Shown here one piece after another: positions 4,486 through 55,491 of a DNA stretch of 64,000 nucleotides. The notes under the pieces were generated by a model. That model had not been told where the DNA came from. It saw nothing but the letters and a program-made list of their open reading frames with translations, and searched no databases. The position numbers and the translations under genes are program-made. The DNA comes from Acidobacteriota bacterium (GTDB lineage: Bacteria > Acidobacteriota > Terriglobia > Acidiferrales > UBA7541): the NCBI GenBank assembly GCA_003223215.1, contig QHYH01000081.1, forward strand, positions 82,481 to 146,480, read 5' to 3'. Within the stretch, counting starts at the first letter, position 1; each line of letters opens with the position of its first letter.

Positions 4486-7128
4486 GTGGAGAAATCTTTG
4501 TCTCTTCGAGCCACCTTGCCAACCCATGACCGTGAGCGCGGGACGCTGTCGAACGCGCCGATCGATGCGACACCGAAGGCGGCGGGCGGCGCGACGGCCG
4601 TCTCCCACTGGCTATCCGCAAACACAGATCACCGACCCAGCGAGGTTTATCGCGCGCTTCGCGACTTCCACCTACTCCTGCGCTCCGAACGCCTCTATGA
4701 AAAGAATCACCCCAGCCGGCTCGACAGCCTGGATAGCGCCTACGATTCCCTGCGGCCCGTCGCGGAATCACTTGAAGGGCTCGAGATTCGAATCGAGCGC
4801 GGCGGAATTGTTGCGCCGCGGGTCAGTGAGCGGCACCTGCCGGACGCGCGCGGAGAAATGCAGGCGCTGGCCGCGGATTTGCAGCGCGTGGGCATCTGGT
4901 CCCTGGCTTTCGCGAGGAAGTTCCATGTGGGCGAACTGGACACGCTGGCGCGATTGATGAGAGAGTCATTACTGAAATCAGAAGAGCCCGCAGGCGCTTC
5001 CGGAAATGCTTGGTGGCCCACCCGCCTCCTGGAGAATCGTGTGGAAGGCATTTCGGTCAATACGCAAACCGACCGCAAAGTGGACACGGTGCTGGCAAGC
5101 CTGATTGGTGCCCTGGTCGCCTATGGCGGCCATACTCCCCGGGAAACCCCGGAAACGCCGATCAAAGCGCCGGACTCGGACGACCTGATGGCCACGCTGC
5201 GGTTGTTGGCGCGCCTTACACCGCCGCTCGAGACCGCGCGCGGCCTTGCTCCCGAAGAAGCGGCGCGCGCCATTCACGGTGCCATGGAGGAAGCCAGCCG
5301 CGAGAGCGTGAGCATGCTGCTCCACTCCGTCTCGCAATATGCTCCGCGCGACGGCGAGCAGCCTCTTCCTTACCTGCTGCGGCTGTCGGAAAACATCATT
5401 CTGGAATTTCTTAGCGCCGAGTTCGCCGGCGGCTCGCTGCATTCTCCGGGAGTCCGTCCGGCATTCCAGCGCTTTGCTGAAGTCTTGGTGGAATCCGGAG
5501 CCTACACGGGTCCTCATGCCTCGCAGCACCTTTCCTCGCTGGCGGTCACCTGGGCGAGCGACACGCATTGCGACCAGGTGATCGACCGGTTCTGGCTGGA
5601 ACTGCCGGCGCGGGAAAAATCAGCGGTGGTGCGCGGACCGGACGTCTGGTGCGTTCCCATCGCGGCTTTGCGGCAAACGCTTGGCCAACTCGTCGAAACC
5701 GGCGCGGACGCTCCTCGGCGCGAAGCGCGAAGCATGGTGCTGAATTATCTGCGTCGTCTGGACCTTCCCGATGCTTCGGCAAGGCGTTCGGTGGCGGCCG
5801 GTCTCAAAGAGCTTGTTCCGATCCTCGAATCCCTGTGGCCGAACCAATTGCCGGAGGAGCTCAGCCGCTCGGCCATGAAAGCTCTCCAGGAAGAAACGGC
5901 TCCGGAGACGGCAGCGCTGCTCGCCGCCTTGGTGGAAGCTCTCGGGCGCATCGCCGTGAATCGTGCCGACTTTGCCGGATTCGAATTGATCCTCACCGGT
6001 CTCGAGCGCTCCCCGCGCGACAAAGAACACGAGCATATGGCGGCTCTTGCAAACCGCCTGGTTGCGCAAGACCGCTGGTTCTTGCTGGTGGACGCTTCGC
6101 TTGCCAAACGGCCGCTCGATCCGGTTCTGCCCCGGCTCTTGCAGCGCGATCCGGAACGTTTGCTCGACCGCTTGACGCTGCTTTTGACCGAACCCCGAGG
6201 TGCAGAAATGCTGCAGGCGATGACCCGCCTCCTGCGCACCATCGGCGTGCCCGTCCTCAACGTTCTCGAAACCCGGCTATACGAGGCCCGGCGCCAGCGC
6301 GTGACCGCCGCCATCAAGCTCCTGGCGGCCTGCGACCCGGAGCGTTTGCTCCGCGGTCTCGCCCGGGCCATTGGGAGCTGGGAATGGAATCTTCAGGATC
6401 TGGCGGTAAGCGAGCTCTCGCGGCCCTCGAATTCCGCCTCGGCGCAAAGCGTTGCTTTCGTTTTCTCCGCGATTCTTGCGGAGGCGCATGCGATGGTTGT
6501 GCCGATGATGATCGACCAAATCGGATTAGCCAAGGAAGACACCGCCGTCCCGCAACTTTTGGAAATCGCCGCCGGGGAACACGAAGTTTTGCGCGATCAG
6601 TTTGTCCGCATCAAGGCCATCGAGGCCCTCGGTCGGATGCGTTCGTCGGATGCCGCCGAACTCCTGCGCACGCTCGTGGAAAAGCGCGAAGGCCTAGCTT
6701 ATCGAGAGCCCGCCGGCCTGCGCGCGGCGGCCGAGGACGCGCTTGCCCTCATCGAGAATCGGCCTTCGTTCAAGCAAGCTGCCGCCGCTTTTGGTGCCCC
6801 GACCCAAGCGAGCTCCGGGTACCTCGTTCCCCGCCGATATGTCCGTGTGCCCCTGGAGTCGCCGCTACGCGCGCAAATTGAAGGAATGCCCGCCGGTCTC
6901 GCCCGCGTCAAGACCATCAGCCTAGGAGGCGCTTACCTCGAGTCTCCGCAAAAACTTACCGTGGGCGACTCCATCAAGCTCGAAGTGCGCGCCGGCCTTC
7001 GCAAAATCACTTTCACCGCCGTGGTTCGCAATATCGGCCAGGAAGGCACCGGCGTGGAATTCGTCCACATGCGTGACGAAGACCGCGAACGTCTCCGCAA
7101 GTTCGTCCAGCGCCACCTGCAACTCTAG
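4486..7128 (+). CDS. Large HEAT-like repeat protein with C-terminal PilZ domain
   Basis: 880 aa ORF, GTG start; C-terminus PRRYVRVPLESPLRAQI...TISLGGAYLESPQKLTVGDSIKLEV resembles PilZ; central helical repeats. Confidence 0.8.
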   Translation: MEKSLSLRATLPTHDRERGTLSNAPIDATPKAAGGATAVSHWLSANTDHRPSEVYRALRDFHLLLRSERLYEKNHPSRLDSLDSAYDSLRPVAESLEGLEIRIERGGIVAPRVSERHLPDARGEMQALAADLQRVGIWSLAFARKFHVGELDTLARLMRESLLKSEEPAGASGNAWWPTRLLENRVEGISVNTQTDRKVDTVLASLIGALVAYGGHTPRETPETPIKAPDSDDLMATLRLLARLTPPLETARGLAPEEAARAIHGAMEEASRESVSMLLHSVSQYAPRDGEQPLPYLLRLSENIILEFLSAEFAGGSLHSPGVRPAFQRFAEVLVESGAYTGPHASQHLSSLAVTWASDTHCDQVIDRFWLELPAREKSAVVRGPDVWCVPIAALRQTLGQLVETGADAPRREARSMVLNYLRRLDLPDASARRSVAAGLKELVPILESLWPNQLPEELSRSAMKALQEETAPETAALLAALVEALGRIAVNRADFAGFELILTGLERSPRDKEHEHMAALANRLVAQDRWFLLVDASLAKRPLDPVLPRLLQRDPERLLDRLTLLLTEPRGAEMLQAMTRLLRTIGVPVLNVLETRLYEARRQRVTAAIKLLAACDPERLLRGLARAIGSWEWNLQDLAVSELSRPSNSASAQSVAFVFSAILAEAHAMVVPMMIDQIGLAKEDTAVPQLLEIAAGEHEVLRDQFVRIKAIEALGRMRSSDAAELLRTLVEKREGLAYREPAGLRAAAEDALALIENRPSFKQAAAAFGAPTQASSGYLVPRRYVRVPLESPLRAQIEGMPAGLARVKTISLGGAYLESPQKLTVGDSIKLEVRAGLRKITFTAVVRNIGQEGTGVEFVHMRDEDRERLRKFVQRHLQL

Positions 7129-45897: not shown

Positions 45898-48639
45898 CTA
45901 TTCAGTTCGTAACGCTTCCGAGGGTGAAATCAGGCTTGCCCGCAACGCCGGTATTAACGATGCGACCAGCGCCGAGAACCCAAGTGTTAGAACGGCCACG
46001 AAAATCTCCGCAGGGTCATACGGATTCAATCCGTAGAGTTGGCTGCCCAGGAATTGCACCGCCGCCAAAGCCAGGGGCAATCCAACAACCAGACCAATGG
46101 CCACCAGCGCGAACGCGCCGCGAATTATCAGCGCGGCCGCTTGCGTGGCAGTGGCGCCGAGCGCCATCCGCACCCCAATCTCGTTGGTGCGGCGTCCGAC
46201 GTTGTAGGCTGTCACTCCATACAGCCCGACGCAAGCCAAAACAAGCGAAAGAATTCCGAAGAACGACGTGAGTTGTGCAATCAGGCGCTGCTGCCGGAAT
46301 GTGCCAGCCACTTGCTCTCTCAAGGTCTGAATGGAAATGATCGGCAGGTTGGGATCCACCGAGGCCATGGCCTGGCGAATCTGCCCAGAGGACACGCTGG
46401 CTCCCGGCCGGGTGACAATAAGAATATCGTGCAGGAAATGCGAGCCTGGGTTGCTGTCCTTTCCGGTTGGCAACACGTCATGTTGCGCTTCGGGAACAAA
46501 GAAGAATGGGCCAATCGGGTGGTCAAGATCGAAGTCCAGATAGCGCGCGTCTTGGGCCACGCCTACAATTTCGTATTGGCGGGACGTCCCCATCCCAGTC
46601 TGTCCGAAGTACTTCTCGATTGGGTCCTCTTTCTGGAAAAACTTGCGCGCAAACGCCTGGTTGATCACGGCCACGTGCTGTGAAGTCGCAGTGTCGAGAT
46701 CGGAGATCCCGCGTCCCTCGATAATGGGAGTTCCGACGGCGGTAAAATATCCCGCAGTGACGCGATCCCAGGAAGTAGAAACGTCGTCCTTCGGTCCGGG
46801 CGCCGGACGTCCATCCACCCACACGCCAGCACCCCAATTGTTGCGGCTCAGCGGCGAGTACTGGCAGATGGCCACGTCCGACACACCGAGAACGCTCGAT
46901 AATGAATTCTGGATCCGCCCGTAAAGTGTGGTGAGTTGGTCTGGTCGATAGGCGACAAGACTCGGATCGATCCTGACGATCGTGCGCCGGTCCTGCGCGA
47001 AGCCAAAGTCTTGATTCTCGAGGTGGCGCAGAGCCGCCGTCAGCAGTCCGGATGCAGCCAGCAGCACCAGCGAGAGCGCTGCCTGGCACACGACCAGGGT
47101 CTTCCGAGGGAGCGCGCCTGTGCGGACAGTGGATCGGCTAGCTCCCCGGAGGGCTTCGATGGGATCTATCCGTGTGGTCATCCACGCCGGAGCGATGCCG
47201 AAAGTAACTCCCGCGATCAGCGAAACGCCGAAGGCAAAGAGCAGGACCGGCATGGAAGACGACGCGTCGATGGGAATAGCTGCCATTCCGCTCGTCGGCG
47301 GAAATGCGAAGTGCAGAATAAGGCGCGTCCCCGCAAATGCAATCACCAGACCCGCCACACCACCTGCGAGTGAGAGCAAAATGCTTTCGGCGAGGGCCTG
47401 CCTCACGAGCCGGAGCGCCTGCGCCCCCAGTGCTATCCTCAACGATATCTCCCGCCGCCGCTCCATGCCGCGCACGAGCATCAGATTGGCGACGTTGGCG
47501 CAGACAATGAGGAGCACGAAACTTGTCACCATCATCAGGATCTGAAGCCAGTGCTCATATTCCTCACGCATGCTCGTGATGCCGGCGCCTCCGGGGCGCA
47601 AGAACAGGGTCTGCTCGGGAAATTCCGCGCGATCGTTGGCGCTCATGTCACCCCAACGCGAGCGCAGCCACTGCTTGAGCTCCGCCCTCATCTGAGCTTC
47701 GATGGAGGCGGGGTTCGCGCCGGGCAGGATACGTCCGATTAGGTCTAACCAGGAATTGTCGGACTGATAGATATCCGCAGCGGCACCCAGCAACGGTTGG
47801 GTGTTGATCGGCAGAAAGAAATCGGGTGGATTCGTGCGCAGGGTGTCGCCAAAGAAACGCGGCGGAGTGATTCCCACGACCGTAAATGGCTTGTCGTCTA
47901 TGTTGAAGACGCCACCGACGACGGAAGGATCCGACTCATATCGTTGCTGCCATAAGCGATAGCTCATCACTGCGGCAGGTGGAGCGCCGGCTTGGTCGTC
48001 GCCGGCGGTCAGCAGCCGTCCGGCATAGGCGCTGATGCCGAACATGGTGAAGTAATTGCCCGAAACGAACTCCCCGGGATAGCCTTGCGCTGCCTCGGCG
48101 CTACCGGAGCGCCGCACACCTAGCAGCGAGGTGCTCGCCTGGAACGCCGCCAATTCTCGAAACCCTTGGGTGTGGTCCCGGAAATGTTTGTAAAGATCGT
48201 AGGAGACAAGGGAAAACTCGTTTTCTTGGCTGTACCCGCCCCAATAGCAACAACGTGCTTCTTTTCCCAAGCGATACAATTCAGCCGGATCGGCCACTGC
48301 CAGCGACTTCAGCAGAACCGCATAGACCAACGTAAAAATGGAAGTGGTCGCGCCAATGCCTAGCGCCAGGGTGAGCACAACCGTGACCGTGAACGCGGGG
48401 CATCTCCGCAATCGACGTGAAGCATACCGCATGTCGTGCAGCAGAGCTTCTACAGACGGTAATCCCCGCTCATCCCGGTACTCTTCCTTTACGGCCTCCA
48501 CCGCGCCGAACTTCAGGATCGCCTGGCGCCGCGACTCTTCCGGAGACAGACCGGCGCGCAGGTTGTCCTCCGCCTGCAAGGCGATGTGAGCTTCAATCTC
48601 GGCTCGCAGTCGTTCCTCATCCTTTTCGGTTCTCGCCAC
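45898..48639 (-). CDS. ADOP-type MacB/FtsX ABC permease
   Basis: 913 aa; ALGIGATTSIFTLVYAVLLKSL, LYGVTAYNVGRRTNEIGVRMALGATATQAAALI, tail ALVASLIPALRASLISPSEALRTE. Confidence 0.93.
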   Translation of the reverse strand: MARTEKDEERLRAEIEAHIALQAEDNLRAGLSPEESRRQAILKFGAVEAVKEEYRDERGLPSVEALLHDMRYASRRLRRCPAFTVTVVLTLALGIGATTSIFTLVYAVLLKSLAVADPAELYRLGKEARCCYWGGYSQENEFSLVSYDLYKHFRDHTQGFRELAAFQASTSLLGVRRSGSAEAAQGYPGEFVSGNYFTMFGISAYAGRLLTAGDDQAGAPPAAVMSYRLWQQRYESDPSVVGGVFNIDDKPFTVVGITPPRFFGDTLRTNPPDFFLPINTQPLLGAAADIYQSDNSWLDLIGRILPGANPASIEAQMRAELKQWLRSRWGDMSANDRAEFPEQTLFLRPGGAGITSMREEYEHWLQILMMVTSFVLLIVCANVANLMLVRGMERRREISLRIALGAQALRLVRQALAESILLSLAGGVAGLVIAFAGTRLILHFAFPPTSGMAAIPIDASSSMPVLLFAFGVSLIAGVTFGIAPAWMTTRIDPIEALRGASRSTVRTGALPRKTLVVCQAALSLVLLAASGLLTAALRHLENQDFGFAQDRRTIVRIDPSLVAYRPDQLTTLYGRIQNSLSSVLGVSDVAICQYSPLSRNNWGAGVWVDGRPAPGPKDDVSTSWDRVTAGYFTAVGTPIIEGRGISDLDTATSQHVAVINQAFARKFFQKEDPIEKYFGQTGMGTSRQYEIVGVAQDARYLDFDLDHPIGPFFFVPEAQHDVLPTGKDSNPGSHFLHDILIVTRPGASVSSGQIRQAMASVDPNLPIISIQTLREQVAGTFRQQRLIAQLTSFFGILSLVLACVGLYGVTAYNVGRRTNEIGVRMALGATATQAAALIIRGAFALVAIGLVVGLPLALAAVQFLGSQLYGLNPYDPAEIFVAVLTLGFSALVASLIPALRASLISPSEALRTE

Positions 48640-51699: not shown

Positions 51700-52083
51700 T
51701 TGATGGCCACGCTTTCCGGTTTCTTCAGTTTTCTCGCCGCGCTGCCGGCCGCTACGGGTCTTTACGGAGTGATCTCCTACATGGTCGTCCAGCGCACCAA
51801 GGAGATCGGAATCCGCATGGCCATCGGCGCAAAGCGCGTGGACGTCGTAGGCATGATCTTGAGGGAAGCAGGTATCCTGACGGTTGCAGGCCTGGTGATC
51901 GGGACCGCCCTGGCTCGGGCTTCTGCCAGTAGTGAAGTCACTGCTATACGGATTGAAGCCGCGTGACCCATTCACGTTGGTCATCGCCGTAGTCACCCTG
52001 ACGGCCGTTGCGGCGCTCGCCACCCTCCTACCCGCCTACCACGCTTCGCGACTGGATCCCCTGAAGGCCCTACGTTATGAGTA
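51700..52083 (+). pseudogene. 3' fragment of an ADOP/MacB-type permease gene, frameshifted
   Basis: FLAALPAATGLYGVISYMVVQRTKEIGIRMAIGAKRVDVVGMILREAGILTVAGLVIGTALA then VKSLLYGLKPRDPFTLVIAVVTLTAVAALATLLPAYHASRLDPLKALRYE* in another frame. Confidence 0.85.
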
Positions 52084-52677
52084 GCTGAGCACTTGCAGCT
52101 GGCAGAGCTCCGCGTTTGCTCGGCATTTTTCAAACCGACTCTCCTCGCTCCTCTGGTACAATCCGCCACCGGCAGATCAGCTATGAACTCGCACTTCGCC
52201 TGGCCGTCGTCGCATTTGGTTTTTTGCTTCCTCTGGTTGCACAGGAACCAACTTCGACTCTATGACTTCGACGCCTTTGCGAAACGGAGCAACTTGGGTT
52301 GCAAATAGAATTGACACTCATGCGACCTGAATCGTTCCCGGGACCGCTGGCTGAGGTTCAAGTTTCTGCTTAGTCTAAACCTACTAGTACCGGGTCGGCC
52401 GATCTGTGCTTTGATCACCGATAGCCTCATTCCGCATCCCTTGTATGCAGCTCAAAAGGAAGAGTTTGCAGCAGCCAGTAGCAAGGCTTCGCATCCAGGG
52501 GCAGTCATGGCAAAGACAGACACTGTAATTGGAGTCGTCTGTTGGCCAGGAAACAGGAAATAGATCCTCCGAAAGAGGTTTCGCGGAGGGGAAGAGAAAC
52601 TAATTTCTTCGGATGGTGTTGGGGTCTACAGCAAAGGTTGGTCGCCACCGGCAGGGTCGTATGGCGGCTAGAGCTTT

Positions 52678-54684
52678 TTGGGCCGAATCATGAGATTCGT
52701 TAAGGCCAACATTGCTGGACTCACCTCCCCACGGCAACAGTCCGAGATGAAATCCATCCTGGGCGGCACGTGGCCGCCGCTCATGCCGTTGCCGGTATTC
52801 AAGTATGAAACAGATGAGTATCGCGCCACGATTGATTTCGACAAGAAGCGCGGAGAGTGGGTGTGTCGAAAGACATCTTTGCCGTCCAACAAGCTTCAGG
52901 AACTGCGCGGTGGACTGAGAGAAATCACCATGGCATTGCCCCATGGCGAAGCAGAAATGTTCACCGAAGACGCGGAACAGCAGGAACAGGAACTGGAGAA
53001 GGATGCTAATCGTCGTCTTCAGGCCATTCATGACTGGAGAGAGAACTACGAGAACGGCGCACGCTATTTTGAACTACGAGACTATCTCTCGGAGAGCCAG
53101 CGAACCGAAATTGACGACAGCCTCCGGCTGTCTCTTACTGCCCGCCAGCTTCAGTTCAATTCGAAGAACGTTGCGTATGTTTTTGACGCTCTTTCGACTG
53201 CGGGCGGCAGGTTTGCAGCGCTCATTGAATTCGCGAAGCGGAATAAAGCGAGGCAGGGAACTGGCCCCCAGGCACAAGGGGAAGGAGCTAGGGAGGCTGA
53301 ACCCGCAATTGACCACGACAAGCAGTCCCTGGGAATCAATTCTCGCGAGCTCGGACCCGTCCTTAATAACAATAACCCGTTTGTTCAAGATCAGGAAGCC
53401 GCAGAGCGTTGCACCGGCGCCGACGAGTTCCCGGCCGTGTCGATTAAGGATGTTCTCCCGGAGCAAGACCAGGCCTCCTTGGCAGAACGAATGGCACACA
53501 CTGCGTCTCAACAATTGGAGATCGAGACCTGTGAGATTGTGGATGCGGATTCTCAATCGCTCGTCGAACATCCTCACGAAGAAAGGCACCACTCCATCGC
53601 ATCTACCAGTTTTGCGCCGCAAGTTCGAACGGGCCAGTCGTCCGCGGATCGCATCGAGGGCTCGTCCTCGCGCTTTCCTGCTCTTGAAGTATCCGCATTT
53701 CAGGTCGCTGTATTTGCATTACTGTTTCTATTCGCGGTGATCGCTTTCACCGTTGGGCTCACAGTGGGACGCGGCCCGCTCGGGAGGCGCCTCCGAGAGG
53801 CCCCGAAATCGGTGCTCGCCATTGATGCCAAGTCACCGACACTGCTTGATCAAGCGCACGGATCGACTTCGCGAACTCCCACTCCGCCGGTGGCGAGTTC
53901 CGACACCGCGGGCACCAATAGGCTCGACGACGCCACGCCTTCCGAAGGAAAGTCCAAGGAGAGCACCCGAGGCTCAGAATATTTCGCGGAAGTACGGTCC
54001 ACGGATTCAGATTCATGTCCGACAAGGGAATCTAAAGCATCTGCTAGGCCCGAAGTCAATTCCGAGCACAGTGGCGCGATCGGGCTAATTGGGCGAAACG
54101 CATCGCCTCCGGCGAGTTCCAAGCTCGCACATTCAACCAAGACTGTCGGCCCGATAAGTAGTGCACCAAGAAGGCCCGCCCCATATGGACTAACCTCTAC
54201 GATAGGCGCAGCGCCGCACCTGCCAAGACCTTCGACGATCCTTGTCACTGCCCCAGGTCGGGGAAGCCAACCGTTCAGGGTGAGTTTCCCGAAGAAGGCG
54301 ATCGCCGCCACGTCTTCCTTCGCAATGTCCTCGCAGCTTTCTGTCCTCGTTTCTCCAGCGGCTCATAGGCCCGCTCGATTAGAAGCTGGCGGGCTTGTCT
54401 CCTTCGCTTGGCCTGGTTATCCAAGGCCGCGGGATCGCTATGGATTGGCTGAAACAATAAGGGTCCGCGCCACTATCGGGCAGCTTGGCCAAGTGCTGGA
54501 AGTAAAGTTCTTGAGCGGCTCCGTCTCTCTTCTTCCTACCACAGAACGAGCCATTCGCCAGTGGCGTTACAGCCCCACTTTGTTGGACAAAAGGCCGGTC
54601 CAAGCTCAACAGGACGTCACGATTGAATTCCGTCCGCCACAATATTCGTTGCAAGTGTCAACTCAGCATCCATCGCCCAACTAG
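52678..54684 (+). CDS. Large hypothetical protein with central TM and C-terminal TonB-like domain
   Basis: TM VAVFALLFLFAVIAFTVGLTVG near residue 340; C-terminal VRATIGQLGQVLEVKFLSGSVSLLPTTERAIRQWRYSPTLLDKRPVQAQQDVTIEF. Confidence 0.75.
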   Translation: MGRIMRFVKANIAGLTSPRQQSEMKSILGGTWPPLMPLPVFKYETDEYRATIDFDKKRGEWVCRKTSLPSNKLQELRGGLREITMALPHGEAEMFTEDAEQQEQELEKDANRRLQAIHDWRENYENGARYFELRDYLSESQRTEIDDSLRLSLTARQLQFNSKNVAYVFDALSTAGGRFAALIEFAKRNKARQGTGPQAQGEGAREAEPAIDHDKQSLGINSRELGPVLNNNNPFVQDQEAAERCTGADEFPAVSIKDVLPEQDQASLAERMAHTASQQLEIETCEIVDADSQSLVEHPHEERHHSIASTSFAPQVRTGQSSADRIEGSSSRFPALEVSAFQVAVFALLFLFAVIAFTVGLTVGRGPLGRRLREAPKSVLAIDAKSPTLLDQAHGSTSRTPTPPVASSDTAGTNRLDDATPSEGKSKESTRGSEYFAEVRSTDSDSCPTRESKASARPEVNSEHSGAIGLIGRNASPPASSKLAHSTKTVGPISSAPRRPAPYGLTSTIGAAPHLPRPSTILVTAPGRGSQPFRVSFPKKAIAATSSFAMSSQLSVLVSPAAHRPARLEAGGLVSFAWPGYPRPRDRYGLAETIRVRATIGQLGQVLEVKFLSGSVSLLPTTERAIRQWRYSPTLLDKRPVQAQQDVTIEFRPPQYSLQVSTQHPSPN

Positions 54685-54732: not shown

Positions 54733-54967
54733 ATGAAACGGGAGGCCTTGGACAAGCCCAAACGCTTCGCTAAGGCTTGGCTGCGAGCCGGAAAAACCGT
54801 TGAACTACGGGATCGCGATAAAATTATCGCCCGTATTGTCCCTGCTGCACACCGCGAAGGAACGAAAGTAGAACTGCCGGACTTCGCGGCCCGACGCAAG
54901 AAGATTTTTGGCGACGGCGTTATGGCCGGGTCCCGATCTTCTGATCGAAGAACGAGGGCGCTATTGA
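54733..54967 (+). pseudogene. Phd/YefM-like antitoxin remnant with frameshift
   Basis: FAKAWLRAGKTVELRDRDKIIARIVPAAHREGTKVELPDFAARRKKIFGD; true tail PGPDLLIEERGRY* found in a shifted frame (stop 54965-54967). Confidence 0.7.
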
Positions 54968-55370
54968 CGATTTACGTCTCGCTTTACGTCAAAGACGCTC
55001 ACTCGACGAGAGCTGACCAGATGTTGGCCGCCGGGGCTAGACCGTGGATTACGCCGCTTCATATTGCCGAATGGGCCCATGCCATTGCACAGCAAGTCTT
55101 TCGCCGGCAGATGACCATTACCGAAGCAGATCGCGTGCATCGAGAACTCGACGATGACCGCGCCGCTGGCCTGTGGGAAACCATCTCGGTTCCAAAGTCT
55201 ACCCCGGACGTCTGTGCAGATTTGGCCGCCGCTTTGGACCTAAGCTGGGAGTGTGTACTCTTGACAGCCTACATGTGGCCTGCGCCCTTGAACTAAAGGC
55301 TGAACGATTCTGGACTTTTGACGATCGACAGATGAAACTCACCAACCACTGGGCTCGAAAACCCGTTAGC
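54964..55370 (+). pseudogene. VapC-like PIN toxin remnant
   Basis: TIYVSLYVKDAHSTRADQMLAAGARPWITPLHIAEWAHAIAQQVF...then FGPKLGVCTLDSLHVACALELKAERFWTFDDRQMKL in another frame. Confidence 0.75.
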
Positions 55371-55491
55371 CGATATCCCCTATACCCGTGCTCCGCAAAA
55401 ATTCTTTCTACCATTGACCTCGGGGAATGCCCATTTCGGCGGCCGCATGGGGCCGTAATTCCATCACTCGCGCAACGGCGGAAAATTCCGC

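Follow-up and report, generated by a model that had tools for sequence, protein, structure and literature searches.

Canonical TonB carries its transmembrane helix at the N-terminus, with an S-x3-H signature, and works with ExbB and ExbD. A gene in the DNA stretch analyzed here (the window, 64,000 nucleotides from a soil acidobacterium) encodes a protein that shares the fold of the TonB C-terminal domain but differs in that its helix lies at residues 338–364, contains no His and lacks S-x3-H. This raises the question of what such a protein carries ahead of its helix, and what it could do. The reading frame at 52678–54684 (+) is open over 668 codons, for a product of 664–668 residues, with the following features:

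52690–54684, + strand: coding sequence from the likely ATG; the Met (M5) is conserved in orthologs, and the start assigned originally, a TTG, is at 52678
52705–53262, + strand: N-terminal domain, residues ~10–195 (AlphaFold mean pLDDT 73.6; omega 0.19–0.29; one genus only)
53263–53682, + strand: variable acidic linker, residues ~196–335 (alignment; Pfam matches of orthologs; no significant PilZ remnant)
53689–53769, + strand: single transmembrane helix, uncharged residues 338–364 (hydropathy; model helix 340–363)
53770–54222, + strand: Ser/Ala/Pro-rich spacer, residues ~365–515 (predicted disordered, weakly constrained)
54223–54402, + strand: conserved segment preceding TonB_C, residues ~516–575 (omega 0.13–0.41; many invariant columns)
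54412–54633, + strand: TonB_C domain, residues 579–652 (Pfam PF03544; Foldseek matches to TonB C-terminal domains)

The original prediction placed the only clear transmembrane segment near residue 340, and indeed hydropathy exceeds 1.5 in a single peak (residues 343–361, KD 2.83), within the uncharged stretch, and the helix is conserved in orthologs. The soluble domain of ~340 residues proposed to precede it was overestimated: the N-terminal part is soluble, but its compact domain, modeled by AlphaFold as strands followed by a helical bundle, spans only residues ~10–195 and gives way to a linker (196–335) that is predicted to be disordered. Model confidence is good only in the bundle of the N-domain and moderate in TonB_C, and residues 196–340 and 360–588 have no confident structure.

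TonB_C is the only Pfam family recognized in the window protein (E 1e-7, 32.8 bits against a cut-off of 24.6), and its W-R-Y-x-P region is present; with the NCBIfam model TIGR01352 the protein scores below cut-off (17.1 versus 27.1). AlphaFold predicts strands and a helix at residues 592–651 with moderate confidence (42–79). The best Foldseek matches of the C-terminal part are TonB C-terminal domains, including TonB bound to FhuA and to BtuB, with probabilities of 0.99–1.00 and E-values of only ~0.03. The TonB-like C-terminus anticipated from the sequence is thus supported both by the Pfam match and by the predicted fold.

The N-terminal half is present in 10 genomes that all belong to a single genus (the window genome, G005, G006, G007, G008, G020, G021, G023, G024 and G033), a patchy presence given the 36 genomes of the genus; G014 yielded a marginal linker match only, and no match was found in the sampled genera of the rest of the family, class and phylum. 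Where relatives have named records, these are metagenome-assembled genomes from Acidobacteria subdivision 2 / Candidatus Acidoferrales. Nine orthologs lie outside the window genome, and the seven that are intact end to end share the central helix as well as the arrangement of N-domain, linker, helix, spacer and TonB_C. The G033 ortholog runs off its contig end, and that of G005 (L036, 1991–3924) is split over two frames; some bases close to the split are undetermined, and it is probably an assembly gap and not a true break. Omega, which compares amino-acid-changing with silent change, is 0.19–0.29 in the N-domain and 0.21–0.46 in TonB_C; in the linkers most values are much higher. Both domains are under purifying selection, and the gene encodes a real, selected protein. 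A misassembled fusion, which the original prediction had contemplated together with homologs bearing an N-terminal helix, is excluded by this selection and by the further copies with their conserved central helix.

Because M5 opens nearly all orthologs, the ATG at 52690 is likely to be the true start, rather than the TTG at 52678. When flanking genes were compared across the ortholog-bearing genomes, none were shared; the gene therefore stands alone, and the conserved neighbors that the original prediction had suggested looking for did not appear. A viral origin was rejected, since neither viral relatives nor a PHROG match were found for the gene. Upstream of it, a degraded fragment with in-frame stops (window ~51700–52085, +) resembles the end of an FtsX/MacB-type permease, like the family at 45898–48639. 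Downstream, 54733–55400 (+) holds what looks like an antitoxin/PIN-toxin pair that frame changes have broken and merged, and in which the frame 54733–55296 has no Pfam match.

The comparison of orthologs showed that the linker is the site of a further domain. In G020, G023 and G033, ~110 extra residues between the N-domain and the helix match PilZ in Pfam above cut-off (E ~3e-11). PilZ is a cytoplasmic c-di-GMP-binding domain, and binding usually needs the motifs RxxxR and D/NxSxxG. Both are readable in the ortholog domains (RLQAR and NISETG in G023), which makes these putative binders. The window protein itself has no Pfam match to PilZ, and because the domain is absent there, its sequence allows no claim of a c-di-GMP sensor for this copy. 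The earlier statement that residues 1–330 hold no known domain is therefore true of the window protein but incomplete for its family.

Was PilZ lost by some copies or gained by others? Trees built from the N-domain and from the C-terminal region, with moderate supports (57–100) and a long outgroup branch, place copies with and without PilZ among one another, and those with PilZ do not form one group. In addition, the closest TonB_C paralog in the window genome is a double-PilZ/TonB_C protein (contig C33), and it is the first PilZ of this protein that the ortholog PilZ matches best (E 1.5e-21). These two observations make it likely that the window clade, along with some other lineages, has lost PilZ, a simpler account than gain. 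The converse, that PilZ was inserted in some orthologs and the window form is ancestral, would agree with the fact that copies without PilZ are the majority and with the lack of a proven remnant in the window linker. Against it stand, besides the trees and the paralog that already combines PilZ with TonB_C, the single insertion place and the one closely related PilZ sequence, and we consider an insertion quite unlikely. A remnant in the linker did look suggestive by eye when INSRELGPVLNNNNPFVQD was set against LNISETGMAVAAAEPFVVD, but it was rejected, being not significant for the window protein (p ~0.07) and inconsistent in sister sequences.

The original prediction took the N-terminal half to be cytoplasmic and coupled to a TonB-type process. 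This interpretation is borne out in part: it is still the most plausible one, and it is strengthened by the orthologs and paralogs that carry PilZ on that same side of the helix. An N-inside topology is favored by the PilZ relatives, by the TonB_C domain and by the missing signal peptide, none being recognizable in the sequence. The charges beside the helix (five positive and one negative after it, versus two positive and three negative before it) argue mildly against this orientation, since positive charges are expected on the inner side of a membrane helix, and this rule would favor the opposite topology.

Foldseek searches with the N-domain returned Hsp70-type structures as the top 28 matches (best E 0.0066, TM-score ~0.2). 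An Hsp70 origin was nevertheless not supported by sequence: scores against 49 Hsp70 sequences equal those of shuffled controls, and the hhalign probability is ~0.1%. The N-domain profile had no match among PDB sequences, and no Hsp70-PilZ fusion was seen in the window genome. CsdK1 and CsdK2 of M. xanthus are PilZ-DnaK chaperones (PMC10313047). They are reminiscent of the window family in that they join PilZ to an Hsp70, and the N-domain bears a weak resemblance to the substrate-binding fold of Hsp70; unlike them, the window protein has no ATPase domain, the PilZ of its family lies on the other side, and Hsp70 ancestry has no sequence support.

Proteins of comparable design occur elsewhere in the same family. 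The window genome encodes three other PilZ-helix-TonB_C proteins (contigs C33, C89 and C110), which share with the window protein a cytoplasmic-type domain, a central helix, a low-complexity spacer and TonB_C, but carry PilZ at the N-terminus and lack its N-domain. Further PilZ-TonB_C proteins are found in G006 and in G059, which belongs to a different genus within the family. A second set of large TonB_C proteins in which the helix is central was observed in several genera (L112, L113, L117, L118, L120 and L125); its members share a different N-terminal domain of beta type, which Pfam does not recognize and which scores only faintly as PilZ-like. With two such sets spread across genera, central-helix TonB_C proteins bearing cytoplasmic-type domains are not rare in this acidobacterial family; searching the whole class with the C89 paralog gave mostly bare TonB_C matches and is no measure of fusion frequency. 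PilZ matches number 46 in the window genome, and we note within the window an 880-residue protein (4486–7128, +) that combines HEAT-like repeats with a PilZ domain at its C-terminus (PF07238, E 1e-11). We regard the protein studied here as a branch of the PilZ-TonB_C group that lacks PilZ. No description of the group, or of any PilZ-TonB fusion, was found in the full-text, open-licence papers searched, an absence that is weak evidence.

The nearest studied design is that of GltG (PglI) from the gliding machinery of Myxococcus xanthus, a protein of 640 residues with an FHA domain (26–90) and a TonB-like C-terminus (570–637), which was examined for interaction with the ExbB-like AglR (PMC3169522). 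GltG resembles the window protein in joining a signaling-type N-terminal domain to a TonB-like C-terminus, but its FHA domain is unrelated to the window N-domain by Pfam. The NCBIfam AgmX/PglI C-terminal model (NF033768) did not match the window protein at E-values up to 5, and no motility cluster was seen around the gene.

Could the protein be a true energy transducer, an ExbB/ExbD-driven TonB that opens TonB-dependent receptors and has acquired an N-terminal extension? The TonB_C domain with its W-R-Y-x-P region and three ExbB/MotA-type genes in the genome would fit, but these genes lie only on C148, C215 and C59, none near the gene, and two of them adjoin ordinary short TonB proteins; a partnership at a distance is conceivable. 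Moreover, the S-x3-H missing from the window helix is present near the N-terminus of the ExbB-linked TonB on C215 (it is absent from that on C148), and the window helix is loosely constrained (omega 0.35–1.2); we judge this role improbable. The N-domain, for its part, is as conserved as TonB_C, indicating a specific role for the cytoplasmic part. This fits poorly with a structural tether between the inner membrane and the outer envelope, TolA-like or a scaffold for a motility complex, that has no sensing role, and a core structural part would hardly be expected to occur as patchily as this gene, in 10 of 36 genomes. Such a tether would explain the single helix and long disordered spacers, the faint TolA scores of TonB_C in relatives and the dispensability of PilZ in several lineages, yet it appears rather unlikely.

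We therefore lean, with reasonable if limited confidence, towards an inner-membrane tether with a cytoplasmic N-domain and a TonB-type docking domain, derived from a PilZ-helix-TonB_C family and deprived of PilZ in the window clade. This proposal builds on the architecture, the TonB_C domain, the selection on the gene and the presence of PilZ in orthologs and paralogs. The protein would cross the inner membrane once, with its N-domain in the cytoplasm, its helix at the center and a long disordered spacer in the periplasm, and its C-terminal domain would dock on an outer-membrane or periplasmic partner. The cytoplasmic part would control the periplasmic docking domain in the manner of GltG. In the PilZ-helix-TonB_C family, c-di-GMP bound to PilZ would determine how active the TonB domain is, how it clusters or which partner it selects; once PilZ was gone from the window clade, the remaining N-domain would be the input or partner-binding part. 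The loss of PilZ rather than its gain, the N-inside topology, the docking partner and the control of relatives by c-di-GMP are the elements that we infer. It is also conceivable, as a more tentative view, that c-di-GMP-controlled TonB-like proteins (PilZ, helix, spacer, TonB_C) form an acidobacterial family that carries the cytoplasmic second-messenger state directly to the outer envelope, and that in the window branch a new input domain, specific to the genus, has taken over the function of PilZ.

A protein in which a single helix connects PilZ with a TonB domain would directly link intracellular c-di-GMP to outer-membrane processes, and the natural occurrence of orthologs with and without PilZ makes the role of this domain testable.
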